A stretch of DNA of 64,000 nucleotides, taken from positions 17,328 through 81,327 of the forward strand of contig NZCC01000068.1 in the NCBI GenBank assembly GCA_002688175.1, given 5' to 3'. Below are positions 32,163 to 36,681 of the stretch, piece after piece. The translations under genes and the position numbers were made by a program. The notes beneath the pieces were generated by a model. The model was not told the origin of the DNA, searched no databases, and worked only from the letters and a program-made list of their open reading frames with translations. The stretch's first letter is position 1. Each line of letters starts with the position of its first letter. This DNA comes from Chromatiales bacterium (GTDB lineage: Bacteria > Pseudomonadota > Gammaproteobacteria > Steroidobacterales > GCA-2729495).

Positions 32163-33443
32163 ATGAGTGCAATTGCAAAAATTCTGGGCCGGGAAATTAT
32201 TGATTCCCGTGGTAATCCGACTATTGAGGCAGATGTTGAGTTTGCCAGCGGGGCGTTCGGTCGTGCCGCCGTGCCTTCCGGTGCCTCAACGGGTTCGCGT
32301 GAGGCTGTGGAACTTCGCGATGGTGACAAGAATCGTTACCAGGGCAAGGGTGTGCTGCGTGCTGTAGCCAATGTGAACGGCGAGATCAGCGCTGCACTGG
32401 TTGGTCAGGATGGACTGGATCAGGCTGCGGTCGATGCTGCCTTGATAGAACTGGATGGTACGGCCAACAAGGGTCGACTCGGTGCGAATGCGACGCTGGC
32501 TGCATCCCTTGCTATTGCAAAGGCGTCAGCCGCTGAGCAACAGTTGCCCTTGTTCCAGTCGTTGCCGGGCGATGCCGCATCTATGCCAGTACCGATGATG
32601 AATATTATCAACGGTGGTGCGCATGCGGATAACAGTGTCGATATACAGGAATTTATGATCCTGCCGGTTGGTGCCGAATCATTCAGCGACGCGTTGCACA
32701 ACGGCACTGAAGTATTTCACGCACTCAAGTCTGTCTTGAAAAGCCGGGGTCTGAATACCGCAGTTGGCGATGAAGGCGGTTTTGCACCGGACCTGCCATC
32801 CAATGCGGCTGCACTCGAAGTTATCCTGACAGCAATTGATACGGTCGGCTTGCAAGCAGGTCGCGATATTTATCTGGGCCTTGATGTCGCAAGTTCCGAA
32901 TTTTATTCAGAGGGCCAGTACAACCTCGAATCTGAAGGCAAGAGTTTCGATGCGGCTGGTTTTGCCGATTATTTGTCCGGCCTGGTCGATGCTTTCCCGA
33001 TCATCTCGGTTGAAGACGGAATGGATGAGAGGGACTGGGACGGCTGGGGTCTGCTCAGCGAGAAACTTGCCGGCCGGGTGCAGTTGGTCGGTGATGATCT
33101 GTTCGTGACCAATACAGCTATCCTGGCAAAAGGTATCGAGAAGAAGATCGCCAATTCGATTTTGATCAAGCCAAACCAGATTGGAACCCTGACGGAGACT
33201 CTTGAGGCGATCAATATGGCGGATAAGGCAGACTATTCAGCTATCGTTTCGCATCGTTCCGGGGAGACGTGCGATGCGACGATTGCCGATATTGCGGTTG
33301 GTACCACTGCATCGCAGATCAAGACCGGTTCCTTGTGTCGCTCGGATCGGATGTCGAAGTACAACCAGCTGTTGCGCATTGAGGAGATACTTGGTTCAGC
33401 CGCACGTTACCCGGGCGCCGCTGCATTTCCCATTTCGCTATGA
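32163..33443 (+). CDS. eno: Enolase
   Basis: [47 protein letters not shown]. Confidence 0.98.
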
Positions 33444-33775
33444 AAGAAAGGTTAAGGAAATCAGTTGCTTTCAGGTTGATTGTCGGTAGCTTGCTGTGCC
33501 TGGTGCTGGTGTTACAGGCCAGGCTATGGATCTCCAATGGTGGGTTTTCAGAAGTCAGCCGGTTGCATACCCAGGTTGAACTGCAGACCCATGAAAACGA
33601 ACAACTGGCTGAACGTAACGAACGGTTGACGGCGGAAGTTGAAGATCTGCAGCGAGGTTTTGGAGCTGTTGAAGAACGGGCGCGTAGCGATCTTGGCTTG
33701 ATTGGTGAGGATGAGACGTTTTATGTCTTTTCTGAAGAGCGGGGGGGCGGTGAGGCTGTCAAGACTGCCAAGTGA
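33440..33775 (+). CDS. ftsB: Cell division protein FtsB
   Basis: Short bitopic protein, TM then coiled coil, [17 protein letters not shown] signature; after eno. Confidence 0.93.
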
Positions 33776-33829
33776 TGGGGCTGGGTTATTTTCAGGTCAG
33801 TTTCTCAGTCTGTTGGCTTTTCCCTGAGC

Positions 33830-33911
33830 GGCCTTTTTCCGCCCGGTATGTTTCCGAAACGCCGCAGGAGCGGCTTTAAGGTTTCGGAAACATACCGGGC
33901 GGAAAAAGGCC
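33830..33911. repeat. 82-bp palindromic element with 31-bp perfect inverted arms
   Basis: Left arm 33830-33860 ggcctttttccgcccggtatgtttccgaaac is the exact reverse complement of right arm 33881-33911; 20-nt loop contains inner gccgc-agga-gcggc. Confidence 0.97.
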
Positions 33912-33995
33912 TCGACACTATTGTAGCTTGGCAATGGATGTTGCTCTGATGTTCCGCTTGGATAATCAAGTGGTGTCGGCTATGAGTCCACGATT

Positions 33996-35027
33996 ATGAA
34001 TTGCTCCGACGAGGCATTGCGTCTTCGCCGGGGCGCCGATCTGAATGCATTGCCGCGCATAATGGGGCTGCCGGTAACAACGGGCATCATCCGTACTGAA
34101 CCGGCCGACTTCATTGTTCGGGAGTCGCTGGCTTTCGAATTGACGGGTGCGGGTGAGCACCTGTATTTGCTGGTGCGCAAGACCGGCCAGAACACTCGTT
34201 GGGTAGCCAAACAACTCGCACAGACCATCAACCTGTCATATCGTGCGGTTGGTTATGCAGGTTTGAAAGATCGGCATGCCATCACCGAGCAATGGTTTAG
34301 TTTGCATCTGCCGGGTTGCGAGGATCCTGATCCTGAAGTGTTTGCAATCGATGGTGTTGAGGTGCTCGAGCAGCGCCGGCATGTGGGTAAACTGCGTGTA
34401 GGGGCGCTGCGCGGCAATCAGTTTCGAATCGTCATTCGCAATCTGGACGGAGATTGTGTCGAACTTGAACGACGGCTAAGTGTATTACGTGACGGTCTTC
34501 TGCCAAATTATTTTGGTGCGCAGCGTTTCGGTCGTGGCGCTGGTAATCTTGGCTTATTCGGAGATCTTGAGCGACCGGCCAAACTGAAGCGGGAGTCACG
34601 ATCGTTTGCATTGTCGGCGCTGCGTTCGGCATTGTTCAATAATTATCTTGCCCAGCGTATTTCGGATGGTTCGGCAGCAACGGCTTTGCCCGGGGAGATT
34701 GTCTACGACGAAGTTGAGCGCACCTTTCGCCATGAGCCGGATGTACGTGGGCAATCATTGCAACCGACCGGGTTGCTGTGGGGGGCAGGTGAAAATCGTG
34801 CGACTGACAAAGCGTTAGAGTGTGAGCGGTCATTTTTTACCCAATATCCGGCAACAATAAAACTGCTCGAGAGCCAGGATCTGCGAATGATGCGCCGACC
34901 GCTGCTGATCAGGCCCCGAGAGCTCGAGTGGCAGGTGGATGATCAACAAATGATCGTGAGCTTTACGTTGGCACGCGGACAGTTTGCGACCGCCTTGTTG
35001 CGTGAATTCGTGACGTGGCCTGAGTAG
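33996..35027 (+). CDS. truD: tRNA pseudouridine(13) synthase TruD
   Basis: DFIVRE, GYAGLKDRHAITEQW, RGNQFRIVIR, NYFGAQRFGR. Confidence 0.95.
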   Translation: MNCSDEALRLRRGADLNALPRIMGLPVTTGIIRTEPADFIVRESLAFELTGAGEHLYLLVRKTGQNTRWVAKQLAQTINLSYRAVGYAGLKDRHAITEQWFSLHLPGCEDPDPEVFAIDGVEVLEQRRHVGKLRVGALRGNQFRIVIRNLDGDCVELERRLSVLRDGLLPNYFGAQRFGRGAGNLGLFGDLERPAKLKRESRSFALSALRSALFNNYLAQRISDGSAATALPGEIVYDEVERTFRHEPDVRGQSLQPTGLLWGAGENRATDKALECERSFFTQYPATIKLLESQDLRMMRRPLLIRPRELEWQVDDQQMIVSFTLARGQFATALLREFVTWPE

Positions 35028-35350: not shown

Positions 35351-36100
35351 ATGCTGGAAATCATTTCGCATGGCGATATAACCGAGTTGCGGATGAATCG
35401 GACGCCGGCCAATGCGTTGAATCATGATTTGCTTGAAGCAATCCTGGCCGGTTACGCTGAAGCGCTGGATGCAGGTGCACGTGGCCTGATCCTTTCAGGT
35501 CAGCCCGGCATGTTCTGTGCCGGTATCGATGTGCCTGAGTTGCTCGGTCAGTCACGTAGTGAAATTCAGCGCTTCTGGTCATTATTATTCCGGACGGGCC
35601 ACACACTGGCGGCCTGTCCGGTGCCTGTCGTAGCGGCGCTGGCCGGTCATAGTCCGGCCGGTGGCGCTGTATTAGCGGCACACTGTGATTACCGGATTGC
35701 TGCAGACGGTACGTTCAAGATCGGTTTTAATGAAGTGCAGGTCGGCTTGCCATTGCCGGCATCGATTCTGTATCTATTCAAGGATCTGGTGGGTACCCGG
35801 CTGGCGCGACTGGGTGGTATGCAGGGGCAGCTGATGCTGATGGCTTCTGCACTGGAAATTGGTCTGGTTGATGAACTCGTACCACCGGATGTGCTGGAGG
35901 AAAGGACCCTGGAATTCCTCCGTGATCTGCTCGCGTTACCGACCGTTGCTATGAATACGACGCGAATGAGCGGTAAACAGGAATTGCTCAAGGTGCTAAG
36001 TACGTCTGATGATGTCGATAAAACGACCGCGGCCTGGTTTACTGATGAGACGCAGTCGGCTATGAAACGGCTTGTTGAGAGCCTGAATAAGAGCAAGTAA
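35351..36100 (+). CDS. Enoyl-CoA hydratase/isomerase family protein
   Basis: Crotonase fold: GMFCAGIDVPEL, AALAGHSPAGGAVLAAHCDYRIAADGTFKIGFNEVQVG. Confidence 0.88.
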   Translation: MLEIISHGDITELRMNRTPANALNHDLLEAILAGYAEALDAGARGLILSGQPGMFCAGIDVPELLGQSRSEIQRFWSLLFRTGHTLAACPVPVVAALAGHSPAGGAVLAAHCDYRIAADGTFKIGFNEVQVGLPLPASILYLFKDLVGTRLARLGGMQGQLMLMASALEIGLVDELVPPDVLEERTLEFLRDLLALPTVAMNTTRMSGKQELLKVLSTSDDVDKTTAAWFTDETQSAMKRLVESLNKSK

Positions 36101-36132
36101 TAACTTTAATATAATTTATTATCTTATTGTTA

Positions 36133-36681
36133 TTACTTGTTATATTGCAGTAATACATATACTGCTCCGGTCCCGCCGTCGCGCGTTTGTGCCGAGCAGA
36201 AGGCCGCTACAGAATCCCAGTGGCGCAGCCAGCGATTGATGCCATTTTTAAGTACCGGCCCACGCGGACCGGACCCAAGGCCCTTGCCGTGGACAATGCG
36301 CACGCAGTGCGAATGATGTGCCAGGGCGTTGCCGATAAACTCTTGTAAGGCCTGGTGGGCGTCTTCGAGGGTCATGCCGTGCAGGTCGATCTCATCCTGG
36401 ATTGCATATTGACCACGCCGCAATTGCCGCATGACCTTGCGACTGATATTGGCGCGGGCAAACAGAAGTTCATCGCCAATTTCCAGTTCGGCCAGGTCCG
36501 GTCCGGCGGTCAGCGATTCTTCGAGAACGGTTCGCTCATCAGCACGACTAAAGCGGGCATTTGGTTTGGGTTGCGGTGGAAGACGCGCATCCCGCCGGCC
36601 TGTTACCGGTTTGACGGGACCAACGGCACTACGGAATAGCGCTGCATCCTCGGTCTTGCTATGTTTATCCTTTTTACTCAT
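36133..36681 (-). CDS. Smr/MutS2-domain protein
   Basis: [16 protein letters not shown]...[11 protein letters not shown]...LKNGINRWL. Confidence 0.9.

Follow-up and report, generated by a model that had tools for sequence, protein, structure and literature searches.

Palindromic repeats of bacterial genomes are best described for REPs and REPINs, which are extragenic, high-copy palindromes that mostly occur as inverted doublets and have been inferred to be non-autonomous mobile DNA; REPIN heterodimers have been suggested to escape clearance (PMC3116915; PMC3733652). Related genes are found in TIRtrons, in which RAYT-like genes are flanked by long TIRs and for which a GGGGWSAS motif has been published (PMC3733652). 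Template switching between the arms of inverted repeats has a published signature, arm homogenization combined with spacer inversion (PMC8604942), and is also known to give rise to hairpin stems and to maintain them (PMC8794818).

The locus described here lies in a 64-kb stretch of DNA (the window) from the source genome (G000), which we compared with three congeners (G001, G002 and G003). The closest genomes, G000 (2.6 Mb) and G002, are both incomplete MAGs (81% and 78% complete, respectively). The palindrome between ftsB and truD is a copy of a non-coding hairpin element whose family is restricted to one genus. We consider it likely that this copy represents a decayed single unit of an interspersed MITE/REPIN-like element, the arms of which are kept matched by template switching.

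The palindrome between ftsB and truD

We compared the inverted repeats within 120 bp across the window and found that this palindrome was the strongest, with arms that are exact reverse complements over 31 bp and a 20-nt loop, in agreement with the sequence-only reading (Table 1). The runner-up, located at positions 36083–36150 at the 3' ends of a convergent gene pair, is A+T-rich and has 33-nt arms at 76%. The 220 nt around the window copy (positions 33776–33995) fold with a z value of –9.2. The inner GCCGC-AGGA-GCGGC hairpin that had been noticed in the loop was conserved throughout the family (helix 3, 94.7% paired). The extent of 82 bp originally given is correct for the palindrome itself but not for the element, which is larger, starting with the outer end from position 33819 and continuing as a decayed tail past 33911. 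In the window copy this outer end reads TTTCCCTGAGCGG, compared with the family consensus TTTCCCTGnnCGG.

The window copy is a decayed single B-type unit, and no second unit was found before truD. Compared with most B copies, 5–6 substitutions were observed per arm, nearly all of which are matched opposite. The near-palindrome GTTTC[C/G]GAAAC described in each arm is present in the window copy, but it is absent from the other copies: the three matching loci were all the window copy, and most family copies read CCTTCCGAAAC or CCCTCTGAAAC at this place. The suggestion that GTTTCNGAAAC serves as a protein-binding site therefore finds no support, since a sequence private to one copy does not constitute a conserved binding site.

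Table 1. Features of the window copy and its neighboring genes (positions in the window)
Feature	Positions	Strand	Remarks
Outer end TTTCCCTGAGCGG	33819..33831	+	Aligned to other copies and G002; last two bases overlap the left arm
Left arm, 31 bp, type B, with copy-specific substitutions	33830..33860	+	
Loop/core: inner hairpin GCCGC-AGGA-GCGGC (33861–33874), then TTTAAG	33861..33880	+	Conserved across copies
Right arm, 31 bp, exact reverse complement of the left arm	33881..33911	+	
Decayed tail and middle region (TCGACACTATTGTAGCTTGGCAATGGATG...)	33912..33960	+	Homologous to the B-unit tail CTCGACACCGTAGTGGAACGATGACGGATGCC; right boundary approximate
ftsB, upstream neighbor outside the element	33440..33775	+	ORF, conserved eno-ftsB-truD order
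truD, downstream neighbor outside the element	33996..35027	+	ORF; orthologues in 14/24 relatives

The palindrome had also been tied to the loss of ispDF, which would be expected at this position. We found that the IspF family was absent from all 16 family genomes searched, including G000 and several genomes that are 92–100% complete, and was present in two genomes of the order in the same search. The arrangement eno-ftsB-truD without ispDF was observed in the congeners and in the other family members whose locus was fetched. Because IspF is absent from all of these family genomes and the element occurs in one genus, the loss of ispDF is older than the element and unrelated to it, and the position of the palindrome is a coincidence.

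Distribution and anatomy of the hairpin family

A search for further copies, which the sequence-only reading had proposed, showed that the arm and loop sequences belong to a repeat family with approximately 54–55 members in G000: 55 matches were obtained by a BLAST search of its own genome, and a covariance model built on 38 hairpins detected approximately 54 distinct hairpins in G000, 13 in G002 and 16 in G003 (matches on the two strands were merged by hand). As approximately 14 contig ends of G000 lie within or at hairpins, its true copy number is probably higher. No member was detected by the covariance model in G001 or in 56 additional genomes from the same family and order, and all of its matches among 60 relatives fell within the genus. 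In GTDB contigs, with its own genome set aside, the exact core pattern was found only in Chromatiales bacterium NP153, which has the same sequences as G002. Viral carriage was considered and rejected, the exact core pattern being absent from IMG/VR.

Each unit consists of the outer end, an arm of approximately 27–31 bp, a conserved core, the matching arm and a conserved tail like CnGGACAnnnnGTGG. The core, AAACGCCGC-(AGGA, TAAA or similar)-GCGGCTTTAAGGTTT, contains a small hairpin of its own. Three arm types recur in G000, namely A (GGTATTTTGTGTCCGTATACCCTTCC), B (GGTATTTTTCCGTCnGTTATCCTTCC) and C (CGGATTTTTCCGCCGTTGACCCCTC). When intact, an element (240–290 bp) comprises two unlike units in inverted orientation with their outer ends facing outwards, and the pairings were always A+B (283–290 bp) or A+C (240–242 bp). 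These elements have an outer terminal inverted repeat of 8–13 bp (TTTCCCTGnnCGG...CCGnnCAGGGAAA) and no coding capacity; when two whole doubles were folded, an outer stem with three arms was obtained in each (z = –16.5 and –17.7). The copies of G003 conserve the ends, the core and the tail but have a longer loop and very different arms, which again match each other within most copies. A similar insert, CGCCCGAAGGAAGTGCCCTTGGG, was observed in hairpins of L038 (approximately 181–277, G000) and L118 (approximately 305–422, G003), and may be another small repeat.

The dispersal of the family is chiefly intergenic, and copies are often located 20–90 bp from a gene end, frequently just after stop codons. 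According to a crude ORF call, 25 copies have both neighbors, and these lie between convergent (13), tandem (8) or divergent (4) gene pairs. One copy, near positions 2930–2990 of L056, is located just past a sequence resembling the 3' end of a tRNA gene (GGTTCAAGTCCCTCTTCCGGCACCC). We found no consistent direct repeat indicating a target-site duplication at 17 loci, although the true ends of the element are uncertain, because some outer flanks share further partial homology beyond TTTCCCTG. Inverted flanks beyond TTTCCCTG were considered as well and rejected, since the complementarity per locus was no better than that between loci, except at L058 and L024.

Arm matching and history at orthologous sites

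The arms differ between copies, yet they remain Watson–Crick matched inside each copy. In the 38 hairpins, 96.6% of the cells were paired, two-sided change was observed in 22 of 34 pairs, and the changed cells comprised 195 two-sided and 8 one-sided cells, with the qualifications that the copies are related, that the two-sided cells are not independent events and that the alignment is imperfect in a few rows carrying an additional base. When the partner was slid by 1–3 columns as a control, pairing fell to 36–52%. The mismatches comprised 11 A.C, 10 G.T and 23 others, compared with 1058 Watson–Crick pairs, and wobble pairs were not in excess on either strand.

The site represented by L033 in G000 and L064 in G002 carries a double in both genomes. 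In its B unit, the arms have changed on both sides (CAGTT/AACTG vs CGGTT/AACCG), and in its A unit, the loop is inverted between the genomes and the arms are the same but for one base. The core is also inverted relative to the outer end in the A unit of L035 and in L045. Both parts of the published signature were thus observed, namely two-sided arm homogenization and, in one case (L033/L064), spacer inversion between orthologues. On the basis of the two-sided arm changes, the lack of a wobble excess and the loop inversion, we prefer DNA-level template switching to RNA selection, with arm-to-arm correction as the main cause of arm matching. Gene conversion had been listed among the possible reasons for the perfect arms; in the form of arm-to-arm conversion, it is the explanation that best fits the two-sided changes across copies. 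At the same site, the A-type hairpin is much better conserved between the two genomes than the middle of the element, which diverges, and therefore selection or between-copy conversion probably adds to arm-to-arm correction.

The presence or absence of copies differs between congeners, and the elements decay through hairpin deletion. At the ftsB-truD site, G002 has kept TTTTTCTCTGAACGG and the tail, the hairpin is gone and the neighboring genes are intact, and G001 and G003 have a short gap only. In the simplest history, the insertion preceded the G000/G002 split and the hairpin was later lost in G002; it is less likely that G000 gained the hairpin late. A recent insertion, which the perfect arms had suggested, is accordingly unsupported, because G002 holds the outer end and tail without the hairpin at the orthologous site. 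The double at L034 in G000 corresponds to a single hybrid hairpin at L062 in G002, which is the product of a deletion between two hairpins. At the L036 site, G002 retains the middle of the element and neither hairpin, and G002 lacks the element altogether at the L024 site, which could be due to a deletion in that genome.

Origin of the family and comparison with known systems

The unit design, with a short outer inverted end, a long hairpin and a tail, would allow one strand to fold into an outer stem and three arms. Template switching during replication, with one arm templating the other, would keep the arms matched at the DNA level, and the same process would occasionally invert the loop. 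Selection may perhaps reinforce the hairpin as a structure needed by a mobilizing enzyme, and a putative transposase or nuclease would act in trans on the ends or the hairpins. Of 30 relatives from the family and order, one had SbcD over the cut-off, in a search whose control set included E. coli, in which it was detected. The family-wide scarcity of a recognizable SbcD nuclease may let the long hairpins survive and persist; it leaves their restriction to one genus unexplained.

The hairpin family could be a classical REP/REPIN system mobilized by the RAYT (HUH/Y1) proteins of G000, and the inverted doublets, extragenic sites, hairpins, high copy number and presence of RAYT genes in the genome are all consistent with such a system, the inverted-doublet logic being shared with published REPINs (PMC3116915). 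However, other palindromes flank the two Y1/RAYT-type genes of G000, one of which scores marginally above the NCBIfam cut-off and the other below it. The first (L021:495–2175; NF047646, 80.5 vs a cut-off of 80) lies amid TTGGTGTCAGACACCAA palindromes with a 30-bp perfect inverted pair at 496–590, and the second (L022:1044–1973) lies within a GGGGTCGGACCA...TGGTCCGACCCC inverted repeat. In G003, inverted repeats of their own accompany two of the three Y1 genes as well. None of these five loci, all in incomplete genomes, contains a homologous hairpin unit (the one model match proved to be a different palindrome), so the check for a linked RAYT that the sequence-only reading had proposed gave a negative result, and G002, which carries the element but is incomplete, yielded no Y1 gene. 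The TTGGTGTCAGACACCAA palindrome also occurs near hairpin-family copies in L025, L036 and L042. Moreover, the stems of 27–31 bp exceed the 5–13 bp of GTAG/CGTC REPs (PMC3733652), and the unit ends, which read TTTCCCTGnnCGG and CnGGACAnnnnGTGG, lack the GTAG/CGTC tag. We therefore regard mobilization by these RAYT proteins as rather unlikely. Similarly doubtful is the possibility that the element is a MITE whose parent was a DDE-type insertion sequence with TTTCCCTG at its ends: the short outer inverted repeat, the length of 240–290 bp and the non-coding nature would fit, but no target-site duplication was seen at the 17 loci with their uncertain ends, an A/B-type end-pattern scan of the incomplete own genome gave only ends of this hairpin type, and long palindromes within the ends are unusual for DDE-type MITEs. 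No mobilizing enzyme for the family was found; G000 and G002 are both incomplete, and therefore a transposase could be missed. A new non-autonomous class that moves as folded single-stranded DNA, with its arms recopied in each cycle such that symmetry rather than sequence is inherited, and with an undescribed enzyme, is a speculative idea to which we give a small chance.

Two further explanations place the function of the hairpin in a transcript. If the family were a repeated structured RNA (an sRNA or an mRNA 3'-end element), its stem would be under transcript selection, and the very stable fold, the strong covariation and the frequent position right after stop codons could be read in this manner. 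Nevertheless, strong covariation alone does not prove a selected RNA structure, and hardly any one-sided (G-U) steps were observed, with wobble pairs not in excess on either strand. The loop inversion between orthologues and the loss of the hairpin at ftsB-truD in G002 with the adjoining genes intact also argue against it, and the best match in Rfam 15 scored 38.9 bits vs a gathering cut-off of 84, with chance hairpin matches only; such an RNA is improbable. An ordinary intrinsic or bidirectional terminator would account for the site after ftsB and for the 13 of 25 copies between convergent genes (crude ORF call), but no T-tract follows the right arm of the window copy, as had been noted from the sequence, and a terminator scan identified no terminator-like site there. 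In addition, the 5' arm carries the T-run and the 3' arm the A-run, opposite to the arrangement in a terminator, and some copies lie between divergent genes, making this explanation highly improbable.

Bacterial genomes usually purge long perfect hairpins. The long hairpins described here persist, spread and drift yet stay symmetrical, in a family without recognizable SbcD. On the preferred reading of DNA-level template switching, they form a natural record of one hairpin arm being rewritten from the other in bacterial DNA, and the orthologous copies in sister species allow direct tests of template switching with respect to arm correction, loop inversion and hairpin deletion.

Among described elements, fungal mitochondrial double-hairpin elements and sponge repetitive hairpin elements (e.g. 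PMC2800124) are also dispersed, non-coding and hairpin-built, although these are organelle elements that appear unrelated in sequence, and the likeness is only an analogy. Bacterial MITEs (NEMIS, ERIC, YPAL, RUP and Nezha) resemble the hairpin family in size, in having inverted outer ends, in lying between genes near stop codons and in folding strongly, and the element has the terminal inverted repeats, the length within 70–300 bp and the non-coding nature that define a MITE. However, it differs in its two independent long perfect hairpins, in that no target-site duplication was seen and no parent IS is known, and in its outer repeat, which at 8–13 bp is shorter than the 15–30 bp quoted for MITEs. 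The TIRs of some TIRtrons are self-complementary, dimer-forming and moderately abundant families, like the hairpin family (PMC3733652), but the genomes searched yielded no TIRYT gene with the hairpin repeat at its flanks. The family resembles REPINs and REPs in its extragenic inverted doublets of palindromic units, and differs from them in its two unlike units per doublet, its length of 240–290 bp, its longer stems, the missing tag and the lack of a linked RAYT. The hairpin family is an interspersed palindromic REPIN/MITE-like element, distinguished by the unusual length of its hairpins, by the pairing of unlike units and by the clear record that arm-to-arm correction has left in it.
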